DNA of 64,000 nt, taken from positions 1,054,001 through 1,118,000 of the forward strand of contig NZ_CP119758.1 of NCBI RefSeq assembly GCF_029323795.1. Reading direction: 5' to 3'. This document shows, piece after piece, positions 18,233 through 34,308 of the stretch. The DNA comes from Zobellia alginiliquefaciens (GTDB lineage: Bacteria; Bacteroidota; Bacteroidia; Flavobacteriales; Flavobacteriaceae). The translations under genes were made by a program, and so were the position numbers. Numbering within the stretch: the first letter of the stretch is position 1; every line of letters begins with the position of its first letter. Below the pieces are notes generated by a model that made no database searches, had not been told where the DNA came from, and saw only the letters and a list, made by a program, of their open reading frames with translations.

Positions 18233-19018
18233 ATGAATATATCATTAGAAAAAAAAAGAGCATTAGTAGGTGGCAGCTCAGGAGGAATAGGAAAAGCTAT
18301 AGCGCAACAGCTCGCTGAGAGTGGCGCCAGTGTAACACTCATGTCACACAGCGAAGAAAAACTAAAAAAAATAGTTGCTGAACTACCAACGAACGAGACT
18401 CAAAAACACGGTTACCTTGTTGTAGATTTTTCAGATTTTCATGGCTATCGAGAAACGATATTCAAGTTTTTTGAGAGCAATTCCATAGATATCTTGGTGA
18501 ACAACACCCAAGGACCAGATGCCGGAAGTTCTTTAGAAAAACAAACTCCGGATTACCAAGAGGCCTTCAACCTGCTTTTTAAGACTGTCGTCTACACCAC
18601 AGAACTTGCTTTAAAGAACATGAAAGAGAACAAATGGGGTAGAATAATAAACGTAGCTTCGGTATCGGTAAAAGAGCCTTTATCGTATTTAGCCCTCTCT
18701 AATACCATTAGGGCTGCGGTGGTCACTTGGGCCAAAACGTTGGCGACAGACGTGGGGCCGTTCAACATAACCGCAAACAGCATTCTTACGGGCTATTTTG
18801 ATACGGAGCGTATTGCACAATTGAACTCGAAAAAAGCCGAACAATTAGGTATTTCTGAAGATGAAGTTTTAGCGGATATGGAGTCCAAAGTGCCGGTGAA
18901 ACGCATAGGTGACCCCAAAGAATACGGATATCTTGTTGCTTTTTTAGCTTCGGATAACGCGGCCTACATAACAGGTACACAAATCCCGATTGACGGGGGG
19001 CTTTTAAAAAGTTTATAA
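18233..19018 (+). CDS. SDR family oxidoreductase with atypical active site
   Basis: A 261-residue short-chain dehydrogenase/reductase. The nucleotide-binding loop is GGSSGGIGKAIA at 13-24, with the leading Thr of TGxxxGxG missing. The NNTQG motif stands for NNAG at 90-94. The active-site serine is probably Ser143 or Ser145 in NVASVS. The usual Tyr-x-x-x-Lys reads Tyr152-LAL-Ser156, so the catalytic Lys is absent. This fits the BKR-like SDR subgroup that carries xLALSNxxRA at this place. The C-terminal YITGTQIPIDGG is normal. Probably NAD(P)-binding, with unknown substrate and perhaps altered chemistry. Likely cotranscribed with the cupin. Confidence 0.82.
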   Translation: MNISLEKKRALVGGSSGGIGKAIAQQLAESGASVTLMSHSEEKLKKIVAELPTNETQKHGYLVVDFSDFHGYRETIFKFFESNSIDILVNNTQGPDAGSSLEKQTPDYQEAFNLLFKTVVYTTELALKNMKENKWGRIINVASVSVKEPLSYLALSNTIRAAVVTWAKTLATDVGPFNITANSILTGYFDTERIAQLNSKKAEQLGISEDEVLADMESKVPVKRIGDPKEYGYLVAFLASDNAAYITGTQIPIDGGLLKSL

Positions 19019-19022
19019 ACCG

Positions 19023-19037
19023 GCTTCGCTACGAAGC
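19023..19037. other. Hairpin at the convergent ends of the SDR gene and the small ORF
   Basis: GCTTCG and CGAAGC pair over a three-base CTA loop, five bases after the SDR stop; the loop is also the stop codon of the small minus-strand ORF. There is no T tract on either side, so it is at best a weak terminator or processing signal. Confidence 0.35.
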
Positions 19038-19127
19038 TATAATGAGCAGGGAGATAAAAAGAAAAAGGAGTACAAAAGCGGATTTCAGGGAAGAAGCCCA
19101 AGTATCAAGAAAATTATTATCCATCAT
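19029..19127 (-). CDS. Candidate 32-residue single-span membrane protein
   Basis: A short ORF that ordinary length filters would miss. From ATG at 19127 (a second ATG follows at once) it reads a polar N-terminus MMDNNFLDTWASSLKS and then a fully hydrophobic segment FVLLFLFISLLIIAS up to TAG at 19029. A minus-strand TACTTTTG, an exact -7 box, lies 18 bases upstream (19146-19153), giving a short leader. The layout is a typical small membrane protein with the N-terminus in the cytoplasm. No homologue is recognised. It could also be chance, given the length, so confidence is modest. Confidence 0.35.
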   Translation of the reverse strand: MMDNNFLDTWASSLKSAFVLLFLFISLLIIAS

Positions 19128-19145
19128 ATAGGTTTTAATTCATAT

Positions 19146-19153
19146 CAAAAGTA
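19146..19153 (-). promoter_or_regulatory. -7 box (TACTTTTG, minus) for the small ORF
   Basis: Forward CAAAAGTA gives TACTTTTG on the minus strand, 18 bases before the ATG of the 32-residue ORF. No clear TTG partner is seen upstream. Confidence 0.35.
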
Positions 19154-19193
19154 GGCTTGTGAAAATGGCGTAATGGTTTTTAAAAACTAAAAT

Positions 19194-19225
19194 TTTGACG
19201 CATATGAAACCTAAAAGTATATTTG
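19194..19225 (+). promoter_or_regulatory. Promoter of the alpha-2-macroglobulin gene
   Basis: TTTG at 19194-19197 and TATATTTG at 19218-19225 are separated by 20 bases, a good match to the Bacteroidota -33/-7 consensus. Transcription would start near 19232, leaving a leader of roughly 108 bases before the ATG at 19340. Confidence 0.65.
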
Positions 19226-19339
19226 TAAGTTTTCTCTTATTTTAATAAAGGTTAATTACCTAACCCAACCCTACCGTTCCCTCATTCATCATTTTTATTG
19301 GCATTGATTTTGCTCAGTTTTGTTCTGTAATTTTATACT

Positions 19340-22300
19340 ATGAAAAGATTGTCCCTCGTATTAACCGTAATACTTTTTTCGCAAATGCTATCAGCCCAAG
19401 ACAGTGGAGATCCGTATACATCACTTTGGAAAAAAGTGCAGAAACTAGAGAGCGAAGACCTTACCAAGTCCGCCTTGGAGATGGTTGAAACTATTTCGGC
19501 GAAAGCGGAAAAAGAGAAAAATTCAGAACAGACCGTCAAAGCATTGCTGTTTACCTCAAAGTATATCATGACTTTAGAGGAAGATTCACAACTAACCATC
19601 ATCAACCGTTTTAAAGCGGAAATTAAAAAAGCGGAAACCCCAACCAAAAACATTCTAGAAAGTTACTTGGCCAATCTATACTGGCAATATTTCCAACAAA
19701 ACCGATATCAGTTTTACAACCGTACTTCAACGGAAACAAAAGTAGACCATGTTGACTTTCGCACTTGGGACCTCACTACACTTTTTCATGAAATCACACT
19801 TCACTTTACGGCATCCCTGGAAAACCCAAAAGAACTTCAAAATACAGATTTAAAAGGGTTTGAAGAGCTATTGAACCAACAAAAGGGTTCTGACAGCTTC
19901 CGCCCTACCCTTTACGATATTTTAGCCCACACGGCACTGCAGTTCTTCAAAAGTGATGAAAGCAATATTACCCGCCCAGCGGATAAATATGAAATTAACG
20001 ATCCGGAAACTATATGCGAGGCCTACCAGTTTGCACATCATAATTTGAGCACCCAAGACAAAACTTCGTTACAGGCAAGAGCGTTGAAAGTATACCAAGA
20101 ACTCATTCTCTTTCATTTTGGCGAACCTGACTTAAAACCTTTGGTTATGGCCGATATTGAGCGCCTAAACTTTGTCTACCAGAATGGCATTTTTAAAAAT
20201 AAGGAAACACTTTACGAGGAGACCTTAAAAAACTCTGCGGAGCAACTAAAGCACCATGAAACCTCTGCATTGTACCGTTATGAACTAGCGAAGTTATACC
20301 ATACGCAAGGGCAAGCTTATCAACCTGAAACAAACGAAGAACCGCGTTGGAAAAAGAAAGAGGCTATTGCGCTGTGCGATGAAGTAATTGCCAAGTTCCC
20401 CGATAGTATGGGCGCCGAGCAGTGTAAATCGCTTAAATCTCAAATCTTGGCTACAACGTTATCCATGATTACGGAAAAACATATTCCGGTTAACGAGCCT
20501 TCAAAATTATTGGTCAATTATAAAAACCTGACCTCCTTACAATTGTCCGCTTACGAAGTAGACAACAAACAGATTAAGAAATTAAACAGTCTATATCCGC
20601 AAAAAGAGCAATTGTCCTTCATAAAAAAGTTAAAAGAAAAAAAGAGTTGGTCCGCATCGCTTAAAAATGAAAAAGACTATCAACAACATGGTATTGAAGT
20701 GCTGCTACCGCCTTTGGAAAACGGACAATACATTATTTTGGCTACACCCGAACAGAAAAGCAAAGACAGTTTTGCTTTTAGTCAAATTCAGGTGACCAAT
20801 ATGGCTTTGATTGAAACCAATGCCCAATCGGAAAAAAAATATCAAGTAATCAATAGAAATTCTGGCAAGCCAATTTCAGGGGCTAAAATGAAGTTTACTT
20901 ATCTCAAGAATTATAACAAGCCCTATGCTACCAAAACTGAGAAAACAGATAAAATGGGATTTGTAACTCTTCCCTTAACGAATGATAACTGGAACGATGT
21001 TTCGGTAGAAATTAACAATAATGATGAGAAGGCTTACTTTGGCAATTATTATGTAAACAAAAAACCGGAAAAAAGCAGCGTTAACGAGGTAACAAACAAA
21101 ATTTTTCTCTTTACGGACCGAAGTATTTACCGCCCAGGGCAACCTGTTTACTTTAAAGGTATTCTGATAGAAACTTTTGAAGAAAAATCGAAAGTGGTAG
21201 CTAATGAAAAGGTGTCGGCAACCTTGTATGATGTTAATGACCAAGAAATAACGGAACTCGAATTTAAGACGAATGAATTCGGTTCTTTTAATGGTGAGTT
21301 TATACTTCCAAGCTCAGGCCTAACAGGAGATTTTCATATCGAAACCGATGGTATTTCCTTGGATGCCTATAACACGCATTATTTCTCCGTAGAAGAATAC
21401 AAACGCCCAAAATTTGAAACCTCTTTTGAACCTGTTACAGCGACTTATAAAGTAAATGACAGTATAAAAGTTACAGGGAGTGCTACTTCTTATGCCGGAA
21501 GTAAAATTACCGATGCCAAGGTAAGCTACCGTGTAAAACGCGCCGTGTACTTTCCACGCTGGTTTTACTGGCGTATGCCCTATTACAACAATGCTCCCCA
21601 AGAAATAGCTCATGGAGAAACTACTACAGATGCTTCAGGTAGTTTTGATTTAAAATTTAAAGCCATACCCGATAATAGTGTCTGCAAAGAGCATCTACCC
21701 ACTTTTACTTATGAAATTAGTGCAGATGTTACGGACATTAACGGAGAAACGCATAGCACCACTACTTTTGTGTCCGTTGGTTATCATGCGCTTACCGCCA
21801 ATATATCTGTTCCCGAGCAATGGAACAAGGACAAAAATGAAGATAATGTAACCATTTCTACCTCCAATCTTAATGGGCAACCTATATCTGCAAAAGGAAC
21901 CTTGAAAATGTATAAACTACAAGCTCCAAAGCAGGTGCTGCGTTCTAGGTCCTGGCCGGCCCCTGATTATAAAAATTGGAGCAAAGAAGAGTACCGCAAT
22001 CTTTTTCCACATGAGGCCTATGACAAAGAGGATCAAGCAATACATTGGGCGAAAGGTAAATTGGTGTGGCAAACTGATTTTGACACTGAGAAATCTAGTA
22101 CGTTCGACATAAAAAACCTAAAAAAATGGGTGTCGGGCAAATATGTTATCGAATTGGAGACCAAGGATAAATTTGGCCAAGTTGTAAAGGAAAAAGCCAT
22201 AACCACACTTTTCAGTGATACCGATAAACAATTGGCTGACAACCGCCTGTTCGACATTAAAATCGATAAACCTAATTATGAGATTGGTGACAAGGCTGAA

Positions 22301-25300
22301 ATTACGTTATACTCAAACTCAGAGGACCTGACCGTAACCGTTACTATTGAAAAGGAAGAAGAAATCATTGATATACGTAAGATTCAATTGAACCAAAACT
22401 CAAAATCGTTTACAGTCCCGGTTACTGAAAATGATTTAGGAGGATTTGCTATCAATTATACGTTTTCTGCCTATAATTCCTTTCAATCGGGTGCATTGTC
22501 TATTTCTGTGCCTTATCCAGAAAACCGACTTGAAATCGAGACCACTACTTTTAGAGATAAATTACAGCCGGGTATGGAAGAGACTTGGTCGTTCAAACTA
22601 AAAGGACCTCAAGGAGAAAAAGTATCTGCCGAACTTTTGGCAAGCATGTACGATGCCTCTTTAGATACTTTTAGACCACACGGATGGAATTTTAATCCGC
22701 TTGCTCGAAGCTCCTATTATTCCTCCATTTACGCTAATGCCCATACCAGCTTTGGCACGAATTCATTCCGAACCTATCTGGATACAGACAGATATAGCTA
22801 CTCACCGCAACAGTACGACTCCTTTAACTGGTTTGGGTTACATTTTGGTTATGGAAACTATAGCAGAGGTTTATTAACCAGAAAAATGGCAATGAGCGGT
22901 GCCCCTGTAGACCTTATGGAGGATAGTGCGCCATTGGAAGAAGTTGTCATTACCTCTTCAATGGCTCCAGAAGAAAATGAAATGGGGTTAACCAATCACA
23001 ATACCTCAACTAACAAAGTTGAAAAGAAAACTGATTTAGAAAAAGTACAAATCCGTACAAACCTTCAGGAAACGGCATTTTTCTTTCCTGAATTACGAAC
23101 GGATAAAGAAGGAAATGTTTCGTTCAACTTCACCACGCCAGAAGCGCTTACCAAATGGAAACTACAATTATTGGCCCATACAAAAGACCTGCACAGTTCT
23201 GTTAAGAGGTTAGAGACCGTTACGCAAAAAGAACTAATGGTGATGCCAAACGTACCGCGTTTTCTGCGTGAAGGTGATGAAATCAGCATAAGTACTAAAA
23301 TTGCGAACCTCACGGATAAAAAGCTATCTGGACAAGCGAAACTTATACTTGTTGATGTACTTTCAGGAAAAGACGTCACCGAACAATTATTGAGTACGAA
23401 AGCTCAAAATGAATTCGCGGTAGACTCGTTAGGGAACACTCAGGTTTCATGGCAACTTAAAATTCCAGAAAACCTTCAGGCCGTTCAGTATACCGTGATA
23501 GCAAAAGCGGGCGATTTTAGTGATGGCGAACAAAGTGTGCTTCCCGTTTTGACCAACCGTATGTTAGTTACGGAAACCTTACCGATGTGGGTACGTAGCA
23601 ATCAGACCAAAACCTTTGTTTTAGATAAATTGAGGGATAATACCTCAACTACAATACAACATCATAAACTTACTTTGGAAATCACTTCCAACCCAGCTTG
23701 GTATGCCGTTCAGGCACTGCCTTATTTAATGGAGTATCCGTATGATTGTAACGAGCAAACTTTTGCCCGATACTATGCCAACACACTAGCAAGCCATATT
23801 GCCAATTCAAACAAAAGAATAAAAGCGGTATTTGACCAATGGGCCAGTTCCGATGCGTTACTGAGCAACTTGGAAAAGAATGAAGAACTACAATCCCTTT
23901 TAATTCAAGAAACCCCATGGTTACGCGATGCGCAATCTGAGACCGAACGGAAAAAACGAATTGCGCTTTTATTCGACCTCAACAAAATGAAAGATGCACA
24001 GAGCCGTGCACTTGATAAATTGAAGAACAACCAAAAATCATCCGGGGCATGGCCGTGGTTTAACGGTGGTTCTGACAACCGGTTCATCACCCAACATATT
24101 ATTGCGGGAATTGGCCATTTAAACAAACTAAACGTAACCTCTGACACACCCGACAACCAGTCTAAAGCGGAAGAAATGACCCGAAAGGCCATTGGTTATT
24201 TGGATGCCGAATTTGTAGAAGAATACGAGCAAATGAAGAAATACGCTTCCAACATAAATCATGATCATTTAAGCCAGATACAAATTCACTATTTGTACAT
24301 GCGCAGCTTCTTTACCGATATTAAAACCTCAAAGGAAGTTGATAAAATTAGGGCGTATTATCTTGGGCAAGCCAAAGAATACTGGACTAAGAAAGGGCTT
24401 TATTCGAAGGGAATGTTGGCCCTCATCTTAAACAGAAATGGTCACACCACCACGGCTAATAAAATTTTAAAAGGATTAAAAGAAAACAGCATCGTGTCGG
24501 AGGAACTAGGTATGTATTGGAAAGAAAACACCCCGTCTTGGTATTGGCATCAAGCCCCTATTGAAACACAAGCGCTTTTGATAGAAGCTTTCGGAGAAAT
24601 CGAAAATGATACAGAAACTATAGATAACCTGAAAATTTGGCTTCTAAAGCACAAACAGACCAACCAATGGTCTACCACCAAAGCTACCTCCGAAGCCGTT
24701 TACGCATTGCTCCTACAGGGCAGCGACTGGCTTTCCATAACCGATGCCGTTGATGTTAGCGTTGGAGGAAAAGCTATAGATGCTGAAAGGTTAGAAAATA
24801 CTAAAGTGGAAGCAGGAACAGGCTATTTTAAAACTTCGTGGGATACTTCTGATATAGAAAAAAATATGGCTGAAGTTAACCTGACTAAAAAAGGAAACGG
24901 AATAGCTTGGGGCGCCCTGTATTGGCAGTATTTTGAAGATTTGGACAAAATAACATCCGCAGAAACACCTTTACAGCTTAAGAAAAAGTTATTCCTAAAA
25001 AAGAACACGGATACAGGTGAAAAAATCTCAGAGGTTACCGATGCAACAGTTTTAAAAGTAGGTGATTTGGTGCGTGTACGAATAGAACTTCGTTCTGATC
25101 GGGATATGGAATTCGTTCATATGAAAGACATGCGAGCGGCAGGGTTTGAACCTATTAACGTAATCTCCCGCTACAAATGGCAAGATGGTTTGGGGTACTA
25201 TGAAAGCACCAAAGATGCCAGTACCAATTTCTTTTTCGATTATTTACCGAAAGGAGTTTACGTATTTGAATACGACTTAAGGGTAAACAATGCCGGAGAT

Positions 25301-25390
25301 TTCAGCAATGGAGTTACTACAATCCAAAGCATGTACGCACCCGAATTTTCTAGTCATTCGGAAGGAGTACGGGTAGAGGTTGGTGATTAG
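19340..25390 (+). CDS. Alpha-2-macroglobulin family protein with MG2 domain and thioester motif
   Basis: A very large (2016 residues) protein with a Sec signal peptide (cleavage after MLSAQ) and no lipobox, unlike E. coli YfhM. The first 450 residues are helical; MG-type sandwiches follow, with MG2 opening FTDRSIYRPGQPVYFKGI near 590. The alpha-2-macroglobulin core is at about 1230-1330 (TDKEGNVSFNFTTPEALTKW). YDCNEQTF puts a CxEQ thioester at Cys1470 at the start of an alpha-toroid (about 1460-1850), and a receptor-binding-like domain ends the protein. Such proteins trap attacking proteases in the periplasm or at the surface. Oddities: an LEEVVITS stretch near 1200 resembles a TonB box, and the last 130 bp recur at 30046-30175. 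It has its own promoter and no obvious terminator. Confidence 0.92.
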   Translation: MKRLSLVLTVILFSQMLSAQDSGDPYTSLWKKVQKLESEDLTKSALEMVETISAKAEKEKNSEQTVKALLFTSKYIMTLEEDSQLTIINRFKAEIKKAETPTKNILESYLANLYWQYFQQNRYQFYNRTSTETKVDHVDFRTWDLTTLFHEITLHFTASLENPKELQNTDLKGFEELLNQQKGSDSFRPTLYDILAHTALQFFKSDESNITRPADKYEINDPETICEAYQFAHHNLSTQDKTSLQARALKVYQELILFHFGEPDLKPLVMADIERLNFVYQNGIFKNKETLYEETLKNSAEQLKHHETSALYRYELAKLYHTQGQAYQPETNEEPRWKKKEAIALCDEVIAKFPDSMGAEQCKSLKSQILATTLSMITEKHIPVNEPSKLLVNYKNLTSLQLSAYEVDNKQIKKLNSLYPQKEQLSFIKKLKEKKSWSASLKNEKDYQQHGIEVLLPPLENGQYIILATPEQKSKDSFAFSQIQVTNMALIETNAQSEKKYQVINRNSGKPISGAKMKFTYLKNYNKPYATKTEKTDKMGFVTLPLTNDNWNDVSVEINNNDEKAYFGNYYVNKKPEKSSVNEVTNKIFLFTDRSIYRPGQPVYFKGILIETFEEKSKVVANEKVSATLYDVNDQEITELEFKTNEFGSFNGEFILPSSGLTGDFHIETDGISLDAYNTHYFSVEEYKRPKFETSFEPVTATYKVNDSIKVTGSATSYAGSKITDAKVSYRVKRAVYFPRWFYWRMPYYNNAPQEIAHGETTTDASGSFDLKFKAIPDNSVCKEHLPTFTYEISADVTDINGETHSTTTFVSVGYHALTANISVPEQWNKDKNEDNVTISTSNLNGQPISAKGTLKMYKLQAPKQVLRSRSWPAPDYKNWSKEEYRNLFPHEAYDKEDQAIHWAKGKLVWQTDFDTEKSSTFDIKNLKKWVSGKYVIELETKDKFGQVVKEKAITTLFSDTDKQLADNRLFDIKIDKPNYEIGDKAEITLYSNSEDLTVTVTIEKEEEIIDIRKIQLNQNSKSFTVPVTENDLGGFAINYTFSAYNSFQSGALSISVPYPENRLEIETTTFRDKLQPGMEETWSFKLKGPQGEKVSAELLASMYDASLDTFRPHGWNFNPLARSSYYSSIYANAHTSFGTNSFRTYLDTDRYSYSPQQYDSFNWFGLHFGYGNYSRGLLTRKMAMSGAPVDLMEDSAPLEEVVITSSMAPEENEMGLTNHNTSTNKVEKKTDLEKVQIRTNLQETAFFFPELRTDKEGNVSFNFTTPEALTKWKLQLLAHTKDLHSSVKRLETVTQKELMVMPNVPRFLREGDEISISTKIANLTDKKLSGQAKLILVDVLSGKDVTEQLLSTKAQNEFAVDSLGNTQVSWQLKIPENLQAVQYTVIAKAGDFSDGEQSVLPVLTNRMLVTETLPMWVRSNQTKTFVLDKLRDNTSTTIQHHKLTLEITSNPAWYAVQALPYLMEYPYDCNEQTFARYYANTLASHIANSNKRIKAVFDQWASSDALLSNLEKNEELQSLLIQETPWLRDAQSETERKKRIALLFDLNKMKDAQSRALDKLKNNQKSSGAWPWFNGGSDNRFITQHIIAGIGHLNKLNVTSDTPDNQSKAEEMTRKAIGYLDAEFVEEYEQMKKYASNINHDHLSQIQIHYLYMRSFFTDIKTSKEVDKIRAYYLGQAKEYWTKKGLYSKGMLALILNRNGHTTTANKILKGLKENSIVSEELGMYWKENTPSWYWHQAPIETQALLIEAFGEIENDTETIDNLKIWLLKHKQTNQWSTTKATSEAVYALLLQGSDWLSITDAVDVSVGGKAIDAERLENTKVEAGTGYFKTSWDTSDIEKNMAEVNLTKKGNGIAWGALYWQYFEDLDKITSAETPLQLKKKLFLKKNTDTGEKISEVTDATVLKVGDLVRVRIELRSDRDMEFVHMKDMRAAGFEPINVISRYKWQDGLGYYESTKDASTNFFFDYLPKGVYVFEYDLRVNNAGDFSNGVTTIQSMYAPEFSSHSEGVRVEVGD
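25261..25390. repeat. Direct repeat copy 1 (3' end of the macroglobulin gene)
   Basis: The last 130 bases of the macroglobulin gene, repeated in the same orientation at 30046-30175. The first 102 bases are identical; the remaining 28 hold four differences (25363, 25366, 25372, 25375). A short TTGAAA match continues beyond the stop after a three-base gap. Confidence 0.95.
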
Positions 25391-25417
25391 TAGTTGAAAC
25401 TAAACTGGGAGTTGAAA

Positions 25418-26149
25418 TTACAAGCTCATCCGGTCTTTAAAAAGGTAAGACTGACGTCTGGAAACTTCAACTTCAACCCCATTTTTCATAGTAAGCTTAA
25501 GTTTACCATTGAACCACGGAACCACATCTCCTATATAGTTGGTGTTGATGATTTGTTGCCTATTCGCTCGAAAAAAGTTTTGAGTGGGTAGTTTATCCTC
25601 TACTTGATTTAGGGATTTGTAGAGCATTGGATTTTGGTCTTCAAAAAAGACTCGGGTATAGTTCCCTACAATATCAAAATGAGAAATATCCCCAATTTTG
25701 ACCAACCAGCATTTCTCTCCATCTTTAATGAATATCTGGCTGTTTTCCGTCAACCGCTCATTTTTTGGTTCTTCGATTTCTTTCGATTTCTCTAGCTTGT
25801 TTTTCACCTTCTCCATTGCCAATGCAAAACGGCTTTCACTTATAGGTTTTAGTAAGTAATCCAGTGCGTTATACTCAAAAGATTTAATTGCAAATTCGTC
25901 ATAGGCTGTAGTGAAAACCGTTATTGGAACCTCATCGAGCATTTCCAATAGCTCAAAACCATCCTTTTCTGGCATATTTATATCTAATAATAGAAGCTCG
26001 GGTTTTGTTTTTTTTATCAACTCTACCCCATTGTCAACATTTTCTGCTTCGCCTATCAACTCAATTTCAGAATAGTCTTTTAACAATTCTTTCAATTCGT
26101 TTCTTGCCAGTCTTGAATCTTCAACTATTACCGCTCTAATCTGTTTCAT
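25418..26149 (-). CDS. LytTR family response regulator
   Basis: A 243-residue regulator. The receiver domain (1-120) has the acidic pair Glu10-Asp11, phosphoacceptor Asp56 in LLLLDINMPEKDG and Lys101 in DYLLKPIS. A charged linker follows (about 115-138). The LytTR DNA-binding domain (about 140-243) contains RVFFEDQNPMLYKSLNQ and FFRANRQQIINTNYI. It should be phosphorylated by the LytS-type kinase encoded just upstream, with a four-base start/stop overlap, and control nearby or membrane-related genes. It converges on the macroglobulin gene 27 bases away, inside the block bounded by the two repeat copies. Confidence 0.93.
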   Translation of the reverse strand: MKQIRAVIVEDSRLARNELKELLKDYSEIELIGEAENVDNGVELIKKTKPELLLLDINMPEKDGFELLEMLDEVPITVFTTAYDEFAIKSFEYNALDYLLKPISESRFALAMEKVKNKLEKSKEIEEPKNERLTENSQIFIKDGEKCWLVKIGDISHFDIVGNYTRVFFEDQNPMLYKSLNQVEDKLPTQNFFRANRQQIINTNYIGDVVPWFNGKLKLTMKNGVEVEVSRRQSYLFKDRMSL

Positions 26150-27198
26150 TCTAATGGAATTTTTATGCTAGCAACAACCTCACCTTCTATCTCTTTTAAT
26201 GAAAAAGAAGCCTTTTGACCATGCAAGAGGCGCAATCGTTGCCGGATATTTTTTAACCCCAGCTGCGTAGAGTCCTTCGCTATTTTTAATTTTCCCGTAT
26301 TTGCTACGGTTATAAATAAGTTTTCGTTGTCTTTTGTAACGTTCAATGTTATAGCTCCTCCATCTTTGAGATTGGCAATCCCGTGCTTAGCGGCATTCTC
26401 TATCAACAACTGAATTATCATAGGAGGTATAGGAATCTGTAATGCTTCTTCATCTATTTCTTCAACATATTGCAACCGATCTTCCATTTGTATTTTTGAA
26501 AGCGCAATATAGTTTTCTACCATTTCCAACTCTTCACATAATGGAATAGCATCTACAGTATTTTTGGCAAATGCATATTCCAACATTTCCGATAGTTTGG
26601 AAATCATTTCTTGCGATTTACCCACATCTTCAAGCATCAATCCCCTGACATTATTTATACTATTGAATAAAAAATGTGGATTTATTTGCCCTTTTAAAGT
26701 ATTCAATTGTGCCTCTCTCAAGGTGGTATTTAATTCTAATTGTAATAGGTGATTTTTATTCGCTTCCAAGATAAATTTGAATATAAAATATACAATGGTC
26801 CATAACAGTACTATTACAGTTGTATCGAATATTCTAATTATGAAATTTACATTCTCCTTAAGCCATTCCAATTCACCGTCAGTTTTACCCCATATTTTTT
26901 CATATGCCAATTCAAATAAACTTACAAGCGAGTATATCAAGGCCGAACAGGATACAAATGCAACAAGTAATCTAATCACGTTTTTTTTACTAAAAATTTC
27001 AAAATCTACATTGTTTTTCAAATAGATTCTATAAATAGACGTAGAAATGATCGCCGATAAACCTGAAGTTAAAAAATCATATACCCTGTAGGTAAAGCTA
27101 AACTCTTTGAAAAGAAATACAGTAGAGTAAACTGCATACCATCCCAATATTTGCAAAATATAGAAAAGTAACTCTTTTCGAAGTCTAGTTATTTTCAT
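26146..27198 (-). CDS. LytS-type sensor histidine kinase (His_kinase family)
   Basis: A 350-residue membrane kinase with four hydrophobic segments (about 10-30, 42-60, 76-98, 120-143) and no separate sensor domain. The phosphoacceptor region is QINPHFLFNSINNV with His175. The ATPase region has the N-box IENAAKHG (Asn268) and the G-box QLGLKNIRQRLRLLHG (313-327). All key residues are present, so it should be an active partner of the LytTR regulator downstream, whose start overlaps its stop. The membrane helices probably sense an envelope signal. It is a paralogue of the next gene upstream, which has lost the catalytic residues. Confidence 0.92.
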   Translation of the reverse strand: MKITRLRKELLFYILQILGWYAVYSTVFLFKEFSFTYRVYDFLTSGLSAIISTSIYRIYLKNNVDFEIFSKKNVIRLLVAFVSCSALIYSLVSLFELAYEKIWGKTDGELEWLKENVNFIIRIFDTTVIVLLWTIVYFIFKFILEANKNHLLQLELNTTLREAQLNTLKGQINPHFLFNSINNVRGLMLEDVGKSQEMISKLSEMLEYAFAKNTVDAIPLCEELEMVENYIALSKIQMEDRLQYVEEIDEEALQIPIPPMIIQLLIENAAKHGIANLKDGGAITLNVTKDNENLFITVANTGKLKIAKDSTQLGLKNIRQRLRLLHGQKASFSLKEIEGEVVASIKIPLE

Positions 27199-27199
27199 T

Positions 27200-28273
27200 T
27201 TACTTTTCTTCTGTTCTGTTTTGATATCTAGGAATATAGAGCTTAATTAGTTTTTGTTCTTTAATAATACTTAAAGTACCTCCCTTACCATACAAAAGCC
27301 TCAAGCGTTGATTGACTTTTTTAAATCCAGTATCTTCTTTCAGACCCGTATTTAAAACTCCACTTGTATGTAAACCTAGTACCATATTATCATCTAAATT
27401 TTCACAATACAGCCTTAATTCTCTTTTGTTAGCTCCATTTACAACAGCATCATCCAACATTAATTCAAACATACTTATTAACAACATTGGAGGAACTGTG
27501 TTATCCAAAAATTCGGAGTTCATTTCGTTACTTAGTTTGATAGTATTGGGAGCATCAATTTGATATAGTTCTAAGTATTTCTGTACCATATCCATTTCAT
27601 GACTAATAGATATGCTCTTCACATTTTGATTTGAAAGAGAATACCTTAAAAGCTCTGACAGATCTGTAAGCATTTTTCTAGCATTTTTTGTATCCAAAGG
27701 CATTTGTTTTCTAATACTATGTAACACCTTTATTAAAAATTTACCATTTACATGACCTTGTAAAATATTTAATTGAGCATTCTTTATACTTTCACGCAAT
27801 TGCAACCTTTCTATTCTATTTTGATTATGATTACGAAGAGACTTTACAATGTAATACAGTAACGTCCATACACTTAACAAAGCCAATCCAAGAATCATTG
27901 GCCCCAATGTAATTGCTATACCTTCATGTTCCTTATGAGTTTCAGAGCCACTGCCCGCATGGTCAAGTACTATAAAGTGTTTAAATAAATATAATATCAG
28001 TACCCAAAGCATACAACATACAAATGCCAGACCAATAACCCTTGAAATATTTTTGAGATTAAATTCCAGAGTTGAATACCTCTTTAACAACCACCTATAT
28101 ATACTAGTAGTAATTACACCCGCGATAAAAATAGAGCTACTTATTAAGGTCGTGTCAAAAAGAGAATTGCCATCGATAAAAGCAGCATAACCAATAAAAA
28201 AAAATATAATTCCCCACCCCAGGATTTGAAGTACCCAGAAAAGATGTTTACCTAAAAAAGTAAATATTCTCAT
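27200..28273 (-). CDS. Degenerate LytS-type kinase paralogue (probable pseudokinase)
   Basis: A 357-residue protein with the same layout as its neighbour: opening FWVLQILGW, four membrane segments with a matching TTSIYRWLLKRY, then a kinase-like region. Where the neighbour reads INPHFLFNS, this reads VNGKFLIKV, so the phosphoacceptor His is Lys178. The N-box IENAAKHG is LDDAVVNG, with Asp275 for the ATP/Mg Asn; the first G-box residues are also changed (GFKKVNQRLRLLYG). The frame is open and the fold pattern kept, so it is not simple decay. I infer a catalytically dead sensor or allosteric partner of the active kinase. It lies one base from that gene and one base from the upstream gene. Confidence 0.85.
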   Translation of the reverse strand: MRIFTFLGKHLFWVLQILGWGIIFFFIGYAAFIDGNSLFDTTLISSSIFIAGVITTSIYRWLLKRYSTLEFNLKNISRVIGLAFVCCMLWVLILYLFKHFIVLDHAGSGSETHKEHEGIAITLGPMILGLALLSVWTLLYYIVKSLRNHNQNRIERLQLRESIKNAQLNILQGHVNGKFLIKVLHSIRKQMPLDTKNARKMLTDLSELLRYSLSNQNVKSISISHEMDMVQKYLELYQIDAPNTIKLSNEMNSEFLDNTVPPMLLISMFELMLDDAVVNGANKRELRLYCENLDDNMVLGLHTSGVLNTGLKEDTGFKKVNQRLRLLYGKGGTLSIIKEQKLIKLYIPRYQNRTEEK

Positions 28274-28651
28274 TTAATAATTAATTGATAAAGATTTTCT
28301 GGTCAGGGCATAATAAACAACATAATACCAACCAAGAAGACCGTGAAGAAGGACAAGATAAAAAACATTTCTTTTCTCCAAAGAGGCCACCAATGCAAGA
28401 AGATTACCAAAAAACAACCCACTTTGAAAATAAAAAATCACCATCATTCCAAATGAATACCCAAAAGCAACTCCTGCCTTATAAGCAGGAGAATTAACAC
28501 CGGCACTATCCGCTACACCGTGTAAAAAACCATAATGGGCAATTGCTCCAATTACAAGAAAGAATATTATTATACCCACTATTATTAGGACCGCCAAGCC
28601 AAAATTTTTATAATTTTTGGCTTGTTGGGTTTTTATTTTATCGTTTGTCAT
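28274..28651 (-). CDS. Small multi-span membrane protein, first gene of the LytTR operon
   Basis: A protein of 125 residues from ATG 28651. Longer in-frame starts (TTG 28702, ATG 28693) coincide with the promoter's -7 box or its start point, so they are unlikely. After a short charged N-terminus there are three or four hydrophobic segments (about 18-40, 60-78, 82-98, 103-118). No family is recognised. Its stop touches the start of the pseudokinase gene. Being first in an operon with two four-helix kinases suggests it helps sense or transmit a membrane signal (inference). Confidence 0.65.
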   Translation of the reverse strand: MTNDKIKTQQAKNYKNFGLAVLIIVGIIIFFLVIGAIAHYGFLHGVADSAGVNSPAYKAGVAFGYSFGMMVIFYFQSGLFFGNLLALVASLEKRNVFYLVLLHGLLGWYYVVYYALTRKSLSINY

Positions 28652-28699
28652 TTTACCATAAATTACGATTGCCTTTGCATACATATAGAGCATGAAGTT

Positions 28700-28707
28700 C
28701 AAATATA
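28700..28707 (-). promoter_or_regulatory. -7 box (TATATTTG, minus) of the LytTR operon
   Basis: Forward CAAATATA reads TATATTTG on the minus strand. Transcription from here would start near 28693 and give a leader of about 42 bases to the chosen ATG at 28651. No convincing -33 element is seen. Confidence 0.5.
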
Positions 28708-28958
28708 GGTGTTTTGAACGCTCCCCTTAAACGATGAACGTTTTATCATCTAAGAACTATCTCAGCTAGCAATTCAATTAAAAATTTTAGTACGATTAGC
28801 ATTCTCTGTTATTTTAAATTAGTGCCTTTAGCATTTCTAGAACTTTCAAAAAGATTTATAGAAACGGTGAGAAATAACACATGGAATGGTTTAGAATTAC
28901 AGTACTATACTGCAGAGATAAAAATGATGGTTTCTAACAATCACCGGAATTTATTTTT

Positions 28959-29339
28959 TTAATTAACTGCCATCTCAAAAATACGATAGACAGCCCTGCC
29001 CAACTCTAGCCCTAAAAAGCCACCTATGGCAAGGCGAAGGGCAATACTCAAAGCAGTACGAAGAAACATTTTTCGCTTATCCGAAACGCTGACAATGTTC
29101 TCTTCTTTTTGTAAAAGCCCATTTTTATATATTGATACACCTACACCTCCGATGTATAAAAAACTTAGATATGGCTTTAGTCTGTAATTATTATCTCCTA
29201 TTTTGAAAGGATGGTCTTTTCCAAACCATGAAAACCCCTCAGAGACTTTTTTACAATTCACAAGAATAGACTCCACTCCAAAAAAAGAATTATACACTTC
29301 CACATTTTTATTTTCTATACGATATTTAGCATGTTTCAT
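28959..29339 (-). CDS. Small membrane-anchored protein, paralogue of the protein at 30203-30568
   Basis: A protein of 126 residues with an N-terminal beta-rich soluble part (about 1-85) and one C-terminal hydrophobic segment (about 93-118). The soluble part aligns along its length with the protein at 30203-30568: both show Y-x-V/E-x-N-x-x-V-E-V, F-G-x-E, L-x-N-x-K-x-V-S, H-x-F-x-I-G-x-N-x-Y. The function is unknown; the pattern suggests a small beta domain held at the membrane. It lies in the accessory block between the LytTR operon and the ankyrin gene. Confidence 0.65.
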   Translation of the reverse strand: MKHAKYRIENKNVEVYNSFFGVESILVNCKKVSEGFSWFGKDHPFKIGDNNYRLKPYLSFLYIGGVGVSIYKNGLLQKEENIVSVSDKRKMFLRTALSIALRLAIGGFLGLELGRAVYRIFEMAVN

Positions 29340-29421
29340 AATATGTTTGATTTATTGATTATTTCTAGTTGAACGGATATAGAGGAGTCTCTAAAAGACT
29401 CCTATGTGTTTCACAAAAAGC

Positions 29422-29808
29422 TTATATAGATTGTAGTAATGCTACCGCATCCTCTGCGTTACTCAATTTTGCATAGTCTAATGCTGTCATACCTAATTTG
29501 GATTTTTCCGTTAAGTCCGCTCCCTTTTTAATCAATAATTGAACTAATTCTACATTGTTATATCTAGCGGCATACATTATTGGAGTCATCCCCATAGTTT
29601 TATCCTTTACCTCAACGTCAGAGCCTAGTTCCAAAAACTTTTTAACCGTTTCATAATCATTTTGAGCAACAGCCAAACTTAAAGGTGCTACGTTGGTTGT
29701 TGTTGCTTTTATTGATCGTATTGCTTTGTCCGAAGGTTTATTGTTTGCATTTGCAGTAGTAGACATTACACTAACTAGAATTCCGAAGGCGATTACTGAT
29801 TTTTTCAT
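29422..29808 (-). CDS. Secreted or periplasmic ankyrin-repeat protein
   Basis: A 128-residue protein with a signal peptide (MKKSVIAFGILVSVMSTTANA, cleavage near 22) and about two and a half ankyrin repeats from 40 on: APLSLAVAQNDYETVKKFLE, GMTPIMYAARYNNVELVQLL and GMTALDYAKLSNAEDAVALL. Ankyrin repeats bind protein partners; exported ones in bacteria often guard against oxidative stress or bind secreted enzymes, but no partner is evident here. A minus-strand TACTTTTA upstream (about 29857-29864) is a -7 box with one mismatch. It stands alone between two hypothetical membrane proteins. Confidence 0.8.
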   Translation of the reverse strand: MKKSVIAFGILVSVMSTTANANNKPSDKAIRSIKATTTNVAPLSLAVAQNDYETVKKFLELGSDVEVKDKTMGMTPIMYAARYNNVELVQLLIKKGADLTEKSKLGMTALDYAKLSNAEDAVALLQSI

Positions 29809-30045
29809 GATATTAAATTTAAATTGTTATTGATTTGTTTTTTATTTCTGATGTAAAAGTAGCTCACCCTCTTAGGATTAGAAACGAATTTATGACCAAC
29901 GGTAATTTTGACAATGCGAACGGAAGCAATAATTCACCTATTATGATGAGTGGTAAATACTACAACTTGAATGGTAATTAACCTGTATTTTGAATAGAAA
30001 AAGTGATCTTACAGTAGTCTTTTAACCACCTCAAAAGTAAATTTT
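29809..30045. other. Intergenic region before the repeat copy
   Basis: A+T-rich sequence between the ankyrin gene start and the macroglobulin fragment. No ORF of note and no clear hairpin was seen apart from the weak -7 box for the ankyrin gene. Confidence 0.3.
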
Positions 30046-30175
30046 CGTATTTGAATACGACTTAAGGGTAAACAATGCCGGAGATTTCAGCAATGGAGTT
30101 ACTACAATCCAAAGCATGTACGCACCCGAATTTTCTAGTCATTCGGAGGGTGTACGAGTGGAGGTTGGTGATTAG
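30046..30175 (+). pseudogene. 3'-end fragment of an alpha-2-macroglobulin gene (direct repeat copy 2)
   Basis: The last 43 codons of the macroglobulin gene plus its TAG, without any upstream part. Compared with 25261-25390, the first 102 bases are identical and the last 28 differ at four sites, all third codon positions and all synonymous (Glu, Gly, Arg, Val). Homology stops abruptly at 30046. After the stop, three bases are missing relative to copy 1 and a short TTGAAA match continues. There is no start and no role as a gene. It marks one edge of a rearrangement: either a former tandem paralogue that was deleted, or the 3' end left behind when the intervening block entered by recombination. 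Confidence 0.95.
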
Positions 30176-30184
30176 TTGAAAATG

Positions 30185-30201
30185 GTATGTTTAAAACATA
30201 C
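30185..30201. repeat. 17-bp perfect palindrome beside the repeat copy
   Basis: GTATGTTT, a central A, and AAACATAC form a perfect inverted repeat ten bases after the copy-2 stop and one base before the stop of the next minus-strand gene. It may be a protein-binding site or a weak hairpin; it lacks a T tract. Confidence 0.5.
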
Positions 30202-30202
30202 T

Positions 30203-30568
30203 TTACAGACTTACTGTGGGCCAAAGAAGCTTGTACACAATAACCCCAAGAATAAAACCAGAGCCTAAACCACAAAGTATAACTATCAGAAACATCTGAT
30301 TAGTCGATTTATGGGATAGAATATTTACCAATGAAATTGGAGAACCATTTTTTCGGACTTCAAACCGATTTAACTTATCCCCATAGGAAGCATCCCTTTG
30401 GGCAACCCAATATCTGTTTTCACCAATAGTAAATGTATGCTCCACTCCTGCTTCCGATATCTTTTTAGAAACAGTTTTTCCGTTCAAAAGGACTTTTTCC
30501 TTTCCAAATAGGGTGTGAACCACTTCTATCTTATGGTTATCTACATAATAAAGCGCACGCTTTAGCAT
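30203..30568 (-). CDS. Small membrane-anchored protein, paralogue of the protein at 28959-29339
   Basis: A 121-residue protein: beta-rich soluble N-terminal part (about 1-85) and one hydrophobic segment near the C-terminus (LIVILCGLGSGFILGVIVY, about 94-112). It shares spacing and key residues with the 126-residue protein at 28959, including FGxExxLxNGKxVS and HTFTIGENRY, so the two are duplicated genes on either side of the ankyrin gene and the macroglobulin fragment. Function unknown. It stands alone, with a gap of 216 bases upstream in which I see no gene. Confidence 0.65.
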   Translation of the reverse strand: MLKRALYYVDNHKIEVVHTLFGKEKVLLNGKTVSKKISEAGVEHTFTIGENRYWVAQRDASYGDKLNRFEVRKNGSPISLVNILSHKSTNQMFLIVILCGLGSGFILGVIVYKLLWPTVSL

Positions 30569-30784
30569 TAGGGACGTTGAAGTTAAGGTTCATATGGGGG
30601 TAACAATAACCTTCAAAAGACTTCATAAAGAGCTACTTATAAAAAGCAACTGTGTGAAATGTAGTTTATGAAAGGATAATCGAAAATATAAAATAATAAA
30701 TTACCTACAGCAGAAAGTTTTTAACACTACAAATTGCATAATGTTAAACATAACCCTAAGTAATTACAGGCATCCCAAACATTT

Positions 30785-31306
30785 CTATTTGGTTGGCGGA
30801 TATTTAGAAAAGACTTTTTCCACTAGAGCATGTAGTTTTTCTTCCCTAGTTTCCGGAGTCACGTTTTCTTTAAAACTACTTTGAGTTTGCCCCTGCCAAA
30901 AAAGCTCGTCCTTTTTCACATCAACAAAATCAAACCGTATTTCACGCTCCAATTTGGGCTGCCCAACAGGAATACCTACGGAAACTCCACCACCTACGCT
31001 TCTACCCGTTCCTCCTATCCCTACACCTACCGTGTTATTTCTAGGAGCCTGAAACGATTCGCTTTCTATATTAATATAAAAATCCGGGTCTTCCGAAAAG
31101 CGGATTCCTTTCAATTGCATTTCTGAATTTACAGCATGTAATAAGCGTTTGGTATCAAGCTCACTAAGACCTGTTTCCATATCAGGATAATAATTATAGG
31201 TACTATAATTAGAGAAATCGGTTGCTTTATCATAATCATAATTTACCTTGATCGCGTTACATGAGACCAAGAGTAAAATCAACAATAATGTAAAGGCATT
31301 TTTCAT
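30785..31306 (-). CDS. DUF4136 family lipoprotein
   Basis: A 173-residue protein with a lipoprotein signal (LLLILLLVSC, Cys16). The mature part follows the DUF4136 pattern: VNYDYDKATDFSNYSTYNY at the N-terminus, SEDPDFYINI in the middle, a Gly-rich loop (GVGIGGTGRSVGGGVSVGI), then DFVDVKKDELFWQG and a C-terminal helix ending KVFSKYPP. These are small envelope lipoproteins of unknown function found widely in Bacteroidota. It is 54 bases downstream of obgE on the same strand but probably has its own promoter. Confidence 0.88.
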   Translation of the reverse strand: MKNAFTLLLILLLVSCNAIKVNYDYDKATDFSNYSTYNYYPDMETGLSELDTKRLLHAVNSEMQLKGIRFSEDPDFYINIESESFQAPRNNTVGVGIGGTGRSVGGGVSVGIPVGQPKLEREIRFDFVDVKKDELFWQGQTQSSFKENVTPETREEKLHALVEKVFSKYPPTK

Positions 31307-31360
31307 AGTCCAGTTTTATTAAATATAATGAATTTTAATTGGACAAAAATTTAGCTCTTA

Positions 31361-32362
31361 CTAGCTGTTTAACATACCCCAAAGTTTATCTTTTAACTCT
31401 GTAATACCCTGTTGTGCTACGGATGAAATAAACATATATGGCACTTTCTCCAAATCTTTATCCAATTCTACGCTCATCTCTTCTATCAGTTCTTGATCGA
31501 GCATATCACTTTTAGAAATGGCTACCAAGCGCTCTTTATCCAGTAATTCCGGATTGTATCTTCGGAGTTCATCAAGAAGAATCTGATACTCTTTCCCTAT
31601 ATCCTTACTATCCGCAGGTATTAAAAATAATAAGGTAGCGTTACGCTCTATATGGCGCAGGAAATAATGCCCCAGCCCTTTTCCTTCGGCCGCACCTTCA
31701 ATAATCCCCGGTATATCTGCCATAACGAAACTTTGAAAGTCTCTATATTCTACAATTCCAAGATTGGGTTTCAGGGTCGTAAATTCGTAAGCCGCAATTT
31801 TTGGTTTAGCTGATGTTATCACTGACAACAATGTAGATTTACCGGCATTAGGAAAGCCTACAAGACCAACATCTGCTAAAACTTTAAGTTCCAGAATTAC
31901 CTCTACCTCTTGCCCGGGAATACCAGGTTGCGCATATCTTGGCGTCTGGTTGGTACTGGTTTTGAAATGCCAATTACCTCTACCGCCCATTCCGCCTTCG
32001 GCTAAAATTCTCTCTTCATCGTGTTCGGTAATTTCGAACAGTACCTCAGAGGTTTCTGGGTCTTTAACTACAGTTCCTAAAGGCACATCCAAATAGACAT
32101 CTTCACCATCTGCCCCGGTACTACGTGATTTACTACCATGCTCACCGTGACCGGACTTAAAATGTTTTTTGAACTTAAATGTAACTAACGTCCATAGGTT
32201 TTGATTCCCTCGTAAAATAACATGGCCTCCGCGACCACCATCACCTCCATCAGGACCACCTTTGGTAATGTACTTTTCTCTGTGTAAGTGCACAGATCCT
32301 TTTCCGCCTTTACCAGATTCGGCGTAAATCTTAACATAGTCTACAAAATTGCCCTCGGTCAT
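31361..32362 (-). CDS. obgE: GTPase ObgE/CgtA
   Basis: A 333-residue Obg GTPase involved in late 50S ribosome assembly, stress response and cell-cycle control. The Gly-rich Obg fold spans 1-158 ([24 protein letters not shown]). The G domain has G1 GFPNAGKS at 169-176, G3 DIPG at 216-219 and a G4 written SKSD at 283-286 instead of NKxD. There is no C-terminal OCT domain, as usual for Bacteroidota. A well-spaced promoter lies just upstream. The adenylate kinase gene lies nearby on the same strand, as commonly seen in this group, with the SIMPL gene between them. Confidence 0.96.
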
Positions 32363-32400
32363 TTCTTATACTTTCAAAAAATTATCATCAAACTAGTTTG

Positions 32401-32428
32401 CAAAAGTACGTAAATAAGAGAAGCTCAA
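32401..32428 (-). promoter_or_regulatory. Promoter of obgE
   Basis: On the minus strand TTG (forward CAA 32426-32428), a 17-base spacer and TACTTTTG (forward CAAAAGTA 32401-32408). The obgE ATG follows 38 bases further on. Confidence 0.6.
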
Positions 32429-32480
32429 GACAGAACGATTGATGTTTAAAAAGTTCCGAATGCAAAACCAAGTAAGGTTC

Positions 32481-33191
32481 TTAATCCTCAAGCTGAAAAT
32501 CTATTGTAGAAACTACTCGAACCAATTTTATCTGAGGTGTATTTTGGTCTCGGTTAGAAATAGAAAACAAGCCTTGTCTCGCCACACGAATATCACCCAC
32601 ATTTGCTTTACTATCTCTTGCAAACTTCTCAGCAACTTCCCGTGCATTTTTGGTTGATTCCTCTACCATTTCAGGCTTTAGATCGTTCAATTTTGTAAAA
32701 ATATATTCTATGGGCTGCCAGCTATTTTTAGAACCTAACAAAATACCATCTGAAATAAGTTCAGAAGATTCTGCCAGTGCTTTTTGTAATTTTTCTATAT
32801 CACCGGTACGAACCGTAATTTCAATATTGGCCAAATATCGGTATTGGCTGTACTGAGAATTTGAGTTATAAATATTTGCCCGTGCATCCGTTACATTAAT
32901 CACGCCACGAGTAAGCTCATCTTCAGCAAAACCCAATTCTTTAAAAAACTGAACAACTTTCTTGTTTTGTCCTTCAATATCTTGGCGTAGTGTAACCAAA
33001 TCGTTTCCGGTAAGCGATATATTCATGGGCCATACAGCAAGGTCTGCGGCTACCTCGCGTTCAGAAAGCCCCTTAACCTGAACATAACGGTCAGATTCTT
33101 TTCCGAGTCGGTGCATGTTTCCTATAAAATAGCCTGCCACCATAATGGCAATAGCTATAATCAGTGTCTTCAACCAACTTAGCTTTTCCAT
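32481..33191 (-). CDS. SIMPL domain (DUF541) protein
   Basis: A 236-residue protein with one N-terminal membrane helix (LKTLIIAIAIMVAGYFIG, about 8-25) and a periplasmic SIMPL domain. Typical features are VQVKGLSEREVAADLAVWP, the central VTDARANIYN, and the repeated helix NAREVAEKFARDSKANVGDI. SIMPL proteins (BP26 and YggE relatives) form ring or channel-like oligomers and are linked to oxidative stress tolerance; the precise role is not known. It is ten bases downstream of the hpt-adk gene, so the two are probably cotranscribed. Confidence 0.88.
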   Translation of the reverse strand: MEKLSWLKTLIIAIAIMVAGYFIGNMHRLGKESDRYVQVKGLSEREVAADLAVWPMNISLTGNDLVTLRQDIEGQNKKVVQFFKELGFAEDELTRGVINVTDARANIYNSNSQYSQYRYLANIEITVRTGDIEKLQKALAESSELISDGILLGSKNSWQPIEYIFTKLNDLKPEMVEESTKNAREVAEKFARDSKANVGDIRVARQGLFSISNRDQNTPQIKLVRVVSTIDFQLED

Positions 33192-33201
33192 CGTAACCTA
33201 T

Positions 33202-34308
33202 TTATAGTTCTTCAATAACCTTACCAAGGCGGTGGGTTATCTCATCTATAGCACCTATACCGTTTACACTGTGAAACTTATTTTGGGTTTCATAATAGTC
33301 TTTTAACGGTGCAGTCTTCTCATTATACTCATCAAAACGATTCCGTATTTTAGATTCATCTTGATCATCGCTACGCCCACTTACTTTCCCTCGCTCTAAC
33401 AAGCGTTGAATAAGAACCTCATCATTGGCCTCTAAGGCAATGGTGGCATCTATCTTCATGTCTTTAGAGGCTAAAAAAGTATCTAAAGCTTCGGCTTGCG
33501 CAGTTGTTCTTGGAAAACCATCAAAAATGAATCCGCTTGCTTCTGGATTTTTCTCTACTGCATCTTGCAACATTTTAATAGTTACTTCATCGGGCACCAA
33601 ATCACCACGATCAATGTATGATTTTGCAAGTTTACCCAGCTCGGTATCATTTTTCATGTTGTAACGGAAAAGGTCTCCCGTAGAAATGTGTTTCAGGTTG
33701 TACTTCTCCTTTAAAAATTCCGCTTGGGTTCCTTTTCCGGCACCCGGTTTCCCGAACAGTACGAGATTGATCATATGTTTTTGGTTTAATTGGTAAACTT
33801 CCTTAAGGTTTCGGCCTAACTCATTATAGTCCAAACCGTAACCTACAATAAATTTATCGGGTATATCAATACCTATATAGTCAATGGTGTATTCACCATT
33901 ATATATTTCTGATTTATAAAAAAGACTAGCTACTTTAAATTCTTTGACATTTGCTTTTGAGAAAAGATGTACCAGCTTTTTTAGCGTGCGGCCCGTATCT
34001 ATTATATCTTCCAGAATAATAACACTGCGGCCCTCAATATCTTCCGAAACATCTAAAAGTGTCTCCACAATACCTGTAGACGTCAGACCTTGGTATGAGC
34101 TTAGTTTTACAAACGATACCTCACACGGATGCTGATACTCCTTTAAAAAATCTGAAATAAACATAAACGCCCCGTTGAGCACCCCAACAAAAATTGGAGT
34201 TTCATCTTTGTAGTCTGCCGCAACCTGATCTGCCACGCTTTTTACAGCAGCTTTTATTTGCGCCTCGCTTAAGAACGGTTTAAAATGTTTATCGTGTAGC
34301 TTTATCAC
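33202..34308 (-). CDS. adk: Hypoxanthine phosphoribosyltransferase-adenylate kinase fusion
   Basis: One 368-residue frame with two complete enzymes. Residues 1-175 are a purine phosphoribosyltransferase with the PRPP loop EDIIDTGRT at 100-108 and DKFIVGYGLDY. From Met179 comes adenylate kinase with P-loop GKPGAGKGT at 186-194, DGFPRT at 263-268 and a short lid (GRSDD, 311-315) without zinc cysteines. The first makes IMP/GMP from base and PRPP; the second converts AMP and ATP to ADP. Fusion puts salvage and phosphate transfer on one chain and is known from annotated Flavobacteriaceae. The start is GTG; an ATG two bases upstream is out of frame. The gene is divergent from purK, also purine metabolism. 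Confidence 0.93.
   Translation of the reverse strand: MIKLHDKHFKPFLSEAQIKAAVKSVADQVAADYKDETPIFVGVLNGAFMFISDFLKEYQHPCEVSFVKLSSYQGLTSTGIVETLLDVSEDIEGRSVIILEDIIDTGRTLKKLVHLFSKANVKEFKVASLFYKSEIYNGEYTIDYIGIDIPDKFIVGYGLDYNELGRNLKEVYQLNQKHMINLVLFGKPGAGKGTQAEFLKEKYNLKHISTGDLFRYNMKNDTELGKLAKSYIDRGDLVPDEVTIKMLQDAVEKNPEASGFIFDGFPRTTAQAEALDTFLASKDMKIDATIALEANDEVLIQRLLERGKVSGRSDDQDESKIRNRFDEYNEKTAPLKDYYETQNKFHSVNGIGAIDEITHRLGKVIEEL

Follow-up and report, generated by a model that had tools for sequence, protein, structure and literature searches.

A duplicated alpha-2-macroglobulin gene tail around a LytTR operon in Zobellia suggests recombination between two natural haplotypes

In a 64,000-nt stretch of DNA from Zobellia alginiliquefaciens (genome G000; hereafter the window, whose positions serve as coordinates throughout), the 3′ end of a gene for a bacterial alpha-2-macroglobulin (A2M) recurs beyond a block of six genes that includes a LytTR/LytS-type regulatory operon. 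The A2M open reading frame (ORF; 19340-25390, plus strand) encodes a protein of 2016 amino acids, in which the MG2, bait-region, A2M, and bMG10 domains all score above cut-off. Its translation contains CNEQ, as read by eye; CxEQ is the thioester motif of bacterial A2M proteins. The block lies entirely on the minus strand and begins with LytR (25418-26149), which is convergent with A2M and carries receiver and LytTR DNA-binding domains. It continues with the histidine kinases LytS1 (26146-27198) and LytS2 (27200-28273), both with PF06580, a small protein that looks membrane-like by eye (28274-28702), a second small protein, p126 (28959-29339), which is ~31% identical to p121, and an ankyrin-repeat protein (29422-29808). 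The right junction of the block (29910-30041), where the upstream region of the ankyrin gene meets a second A2M tail, is a probable irregular join. Beyond that tail lies p121 (30203-30568, minus strand), the resident gene that directly follows A2M in six other Zobellia genomes. Nine proteins (the six of the block, A2M, p121, and a lipoprotein) were scanned against Pfam and NCBIfam, using for LytR the best 25 of 73 NCBIfam matches. Three of the nine, among them the small protein and p126, gave no Pfam match. The scan revealed no integrase, transposase, or relaxase among the nine, and there is no tRNA within 15000-40000.

The two A2M tails (25257-25391 and 30042-30176, plus strand) form a direct repeat of 135 nt, with 96% identity and 4785 nt between the start points, while the second-best direct repeat family found by the repeat search in 20000-33000 has 34 nt and 71% identity. 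Copy 1 is the 3′ end of the A2M ORF. Copy 2 keeps the A2M frame over 43 codons and the stop, with a single amino acid difference (Y/F) at its left edge; the five mismatches between the copies fall at 0-based offsets 3, 106, 109, 115, and 118, and the last four are silent. Because copy 2 has no ATG, GTG, or TTG between its start and an in-frame TAA that closes it upstream, it is not gene-like, and we refer to it as the orphan tail. The G000 assembly consists of a single contig (5,066,785 bp), and a 130-bp tail query matches these two places only (E ≤ 0.001). Two separate assemblies, G002 and G006, show this layout as well, in each case within a single contig, and misassembly is therefore an unlikely cause of the repeat. 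An earlier, sequence-only reading of this DNA had described a 130-bp repeat of the A2M end, a second copy without an upstream coding part, an intervening block with a LytTR regulator, LytS-type kinases, a small membrane protein, and an ankyrin protein, and no integrase. All of these points hold, with the repeat extended to 135 nt and p126 added to the block.

The doubled tail is restricted to a few close relatives. Among 60 genomes (G000 included) searched with the 130-bp tail, the query hits 22, three of them twice: G000, G002, and G006, all of them Zobellia. Of the nine Zobellia genomes, these three have the occupied site, in which the LytTR block lies between A2M and a further A2M tail. The remaining six have an empty site, with p121 within ~40 bp after A2M, and the orphan tail of the carriers meets p121 at the junction that the lone A2M gene has in the empty genomes. 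When matches are ranked by E-value, the top LytS2 match in each empty genome is 21 to 23% identical (E no better than 1e−10), and the best match to the ankyrin protein is 38 to 46% identical. No second A2M gene is present at the locus in any of the nine genomes. In a tree of these genomes (19,960 aligned bases from the rpoBC, gyrB, parE, and recA regions), the three carriers form one clade (ultrafast bootstrap 100), to which the block is thus confined. A single gain in the ancestor of the carriers would be the simplest history.

Each of the two junctions found in the carriers also exists by itself. With the A2M end as query, a search across 84,980 species genomes yielded 553 candidate loci, the best 80 of which were kept (one Zobellia and one Pseudozobellia by title; 78 with at least 5 kb downstream). 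A second A2M tail occurs in none of these best 80 of 553 loci (E ≤ 1e−3). Twelve of the 80 have, ~30 bp to 2.1 kb downstream of A2M, a LytR (66 to 80% identical) that has an adjoining kinase. In other genera, A2M and LytR adjoin with no second tail (~30 bp apart in locus L091), and the spacing between A2M and the operon varies. Cellulophaga tyrosinoxydans (L074) has A2M, then two genes, LytR, a pair of kinase genes, the ankyrin gene, an S9 peptidase gene, a p121-like gene, and the lipoprotein gene. The ankyrin gene and its upstream region to ~29909 are recognizable there, and the likeness stops ~130 bp before the orphan tail. The S9 peptidase of this arrangement was found in none of the nine Zobellia genomes (E ≤ 1e−40), in a search that had no positive control and whose empty answer shows nothing. 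Conversely, A2M lies beside a p121-like gene with no block outside Zobellia, in Euzebyella marina (L093) and an uncultured Maribacter (L063).

The association of the operon with A2M was also evident in a sample of 199 genomes spread evenly over the family (LytR at E ≤ 1e−90, A2M end at E ≤ 1e−50; 14 candidates scored in most genomes). A LytR relative is present in 20 genomes, 13 of which also have an A2M end; the other 7 have no A2M match at the cut-off. A2M and LytR are convergent within 4 kb in 9 of the 13 (G000 included), while in the remaining four they are ~6 kb apart on the same strand (one genome), far apart on the same contig (one), or on different contigs (two). Some of the 80 loci come from the same genomes as the other comparison sets, and the 80-locus and 199-genome counts are not independent. 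The block is a recurrent chromosomal neighbor of A2M, though it is absent from most A2M loci.

The sequences of the tails and of the A2M genes record later exchange. Between the gene and the orphan tail of G000 there is a shared run of 102 identical bases, with 5 differences overall (P = 0.004 under uniform placement); in G006 the shared run has 50 bases, with 13 differences (P = 0.010). These tracts occupy different parts of the tail in the two genomes. The orphan tail of G006 has the same overall identity, 85%, to the G001 gene and to its own gene; split into halves, the values are 87% and 82% versus the G001 gene and 80% and 92% versus its own. Gene tails and orphan tails are thus mosaic. 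The A2M genes of G000 and G006 are 96.2% identical versus 86.7% for the marker genes, and those of G000 and G002 are 94.8% identical versus 92.5%. Where A2M begins, identity between G000 and G006 climbs from 80% to 99.5%, and positions 24401-25200 of the G002 gene represent a third allele (77 to 89% identical to the other two, by window of comparison). Whole A2M alleles have moved between the three carrier species. To the left of the gene, at 18601-19400 (the end of the upstream gene and the intergenic region), G000 and G002 are 97 to 99% identical, and the shared allele therefore reaches beyond A2M; the G000/G006 comparisons there range from 72 to 92%. Over 26001-30000, G000 and G002 are 98 to 100% identical, and identity is then 86% and 82% in the two comparison windows that take in the orphan tail and the DNA to its right. 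In a separate observation on the block, G000 and G006 (25418-28273 versus 6751-9583 of L025) change abruptly within LytS1 near 26727: left of this point, the regulator and the kinase half show 78 to 95% DNA identity, depending on the comparison window, and the membrane half and LytS2 show 50 to 56%. It is as if a swap of the sensor part had taken place.

We propose that the locus is probably a recombinational hybrid of two natural haplotypes, A2M-LytR and A2M-p121. One form would carry A2M followed by LytR, LytS1, LytS2, the small protein, p126, and the ankyrin protein (LytTR-plus), and the other A2M followed by p121 (LytTR-minus). In the common ancestor of the carriers, DNA of one form would have joined the other by means of A2M homology at one end; at the opposite end, right of the ankyrin gene, the join would have been irregular. 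Alternatively, a circularized fragment carrying an A2M tail could have entered by a single crossover. Either way, A2M would remain whole and the tail of the other form would be stranded as an orphan before p121, and part of the homologous gene does lie on both sides of the insert. Afterwards, gene conversion would have exchanged sequence between the two tails, and A2M alleles and part of the block would have moved among the three species by homologous recombination. We infer that a single event made the hybrid, as we infer which form was the recipient and which molecular route was taken; homologous recombination with a scar is the most likely mechanism. The circle that the sequence-only reading had proposed fits the data, although they are equally compatible with a linear fragment joined homologously at one end and irregularly at the other. 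Two points differ from that reading: the tails are no simple record of one insertion, having been reshuffled later together with A2M, and the block, whose LytTR operon recurs beside A2M in the family, is not a foreign accessory island.

Several observations weigh against this proposal or blur it. In G000, A2M is no longer recognizable in the stretch to the left of the orphan tail (P = 0.70 versus its own gene, P = 0.059 versus the G001 gene), and the original junction is therefore lost. The junction at the irregular end, where microhomology or a signature of ligation would be expected, has decayed, and extra A2M homology left of the tail is clear in G006 only, where it extends at least 36 bp further left in comparison with the G001 gene (0 of 5000 shuffles; the comparison was picked after the alignment had been inspected). 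In G002, gene and orphan tail share no excess identical run (15 differences, P = 0.56), and conversion is therefore seen in two of the three carriers. The boundary of the G000/G002 similarity is not clean: within the block, positions 25401-26000 are 84 to 93% identical, and past the orphan tail identity reaches 95.5% in one window (30401-30600) before it falls again. The recipient is ambiguous as well, in that a LytTR-minus fragment entering a LytTR-plus chromosome would give the same structure. Trees do not settle the placement of the carriers' A2M, and they neither show nor exclude an outside donor. Monophyly of Zobellia A2M gave approximately unbiased test values of p = 0.059 (33 sequences) and p = 0.156 (17 sequences, without G004), and nesting of A2M as in the species tree gave p = 0.129. 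An origin of A2M outside the genus, at which a first tree had hinted, found no support in these topology tests and was dropped.

The pattern of occupied and empty sites could have arisen from the opposite direction of change. If the hybrid were ancestral to Zobellia, recombination between the tails in the six empty-site species would have excised the block, rebuilt A2M exactly, and left just the empty junction observed, and the recurrence of the LytTR operon beside A2M in the family is in line with this. This history would take about three separate losses against one gain, a count that assumes a root on the long branch to G005 and G008 in a species tree built with no outgroup. Moreover, A2M is followed by a p121-like gene with no block in Euzebyella and Maribacter too, and a doubled tail is missing from the best 80 loci; we therefore regard block loss as unlikely. 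The sequence-only reading had left open whether an insertion or the deletion of a second A2M copy produced the repeat. A tandem duplicate of A2M downstream of the block might have been deleted save its tail. Other genera of the family do carry tandem A2M paralogues, which lie ~6 to 9 kb apart on a single contig (G063, with three copies, G207, G209, and G225), and gene conversion could mask an older paralogue. Yet those extra copies are 54 to 67% identical at the protein level to the last 250 residues of the window's A2M, while the three orphan tails are 86 to 93% identical to it over 44 to 51 residues, a rough comparison given the unequal lengths, and 76 to 96% identical to Zobellia A2M tails at the DNA level. 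No second A2M gene stands here in the nine Zobellia genomes or the best 80 of 553 loci, and the orphan tail passes into p121 just as the lone A2M gene does in the empty genomes. A deleted duplicate is thus a doubtful source of the tail. Insertion is favored over it because empty sites exist, with A2M leading directly into the gene after 30175 as had been anticipated for relatives, and because no second tail was found in those 80 loci.

Two other explanations are very improbable. The block could be an integrative element that recognizes the 3′ terminus of A2M, in the manner of islands at tRNA genes: the direct repeat rebuilds the end of the gene, which stays whole, and an empty site is present in six of the nine Zobellia genomes. 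Neither the nine scanned proteins nor the surrounding 15000-40000 region offered the enzymes or the tRNA of such an element, however, and elsewhere the operon lies at varying distances from A2M with no second tail; of all the explanations, we give this one the least credence. The orphan tail could also have been kept for a function, for example, to end p121 transcription on the minus strand. Both copies contain a terminator-like hairpin on that strand (30092-30076 and 25307-25291), and these are two of 7 terminator-like sites in 25200-30300, versus 2.2 expected. The hairpin bases, though, are not kept in G001 (judged by eye), and in G000 and G006 the mosaic tracts explain the likeness of the tails with no need for selection. 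Under a further reading, A2M and the LytTR operon would form a conserved functional module of Flavobacteriaceae in which the paired tails act as a reversible switch, with both states present in populations and conversion keeping the tails matched. We consider such a switch unlikely. Under the hybrid proposal itself, excision through the tails is predicted to drop the block and restore an intact A2M.

The linkage of the genes invites the guess that the LytTR system regulates A2M. In a scan with a consensus for LytTR binding repeats, 4 of 10 upstream regions contain one repeat pair each, which is the chance level (shuffle P = 0.10 to 0.25), and no pair was found in the two upstream regions of the window. 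In the open-licence literature, we found no paper on alpha-2-macroglobulin with LytTR or on Zobellia with macroglobulin. The recurrent convergent pairing of A2M and LytTR is the more useful result, as a testable lead to the control of a protease trap.

The likeness of p126 and p121 also raised the possibility that an A2M-p121 unit was duplicated inside Zobellia, which we rejected given that p126-like genes also flank the operon in L112; the p126/p121 pair is probably old. Further downstream, a gene provisionally labeled SIMPL-like (32481-33191) lies between ObgE and the next gene. It is present in G000 and in Pseudozobellia (G018), and it has no tblastn match (E ≤ 1e−4) in the loci of the eight other Zobellia genomes. 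The adjacent ORF (33202-34308) seems by eye to fuse a hypoxanthine phosphoribosyltransferase and an adenylate kinase, and it has full-length matches in all nine other loci compared.

Genomic islands that use the 3′ end of a tRNA gene or a protein gene as their insertion site duplicate the gene end directly on the far side of the insert and leave the gene whole. The Zobellia locus resembles them in that the A2M end is duplicated in direct orientation beyond the block and A2M is whole, and it differs in that no integrase was found and the insert is a recurrent neighbor in the family. A typical att core is shorter than this A2M-tail repeat. As in LytTR/LytS two-component systems, a LytTR-domain regulator and PF06580 kinases stand in one row of genes, but here two unlike kinases (~28% identical) adjoin, and the row is linked to A2M in several genera. 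Closer parallels are homology-facilitated illegitimate recombination and the single-crossover integration of circularized fragments, both described in Escherichia coli (PMC3240628). These events likewise combine homology on one side with an irregular join, or ligation of fragment ends, on the other side, and involve no integrase; integration of this kind would be expected to duplicate part of the homologous gene. Those events took place in the laboratory, whereas in Zobellia the trace is common to a clade and overwritten by later exchange, and the route is deduced from it. The locus represents a familiar type of event whose record is unusually clear: a well-resolved case of a regulatory operon entering or leaving a neighborhood with no visible mobile-element enzyme, which still displays the empty state, the way the operon is arranged in other genera, and the later overwriting.

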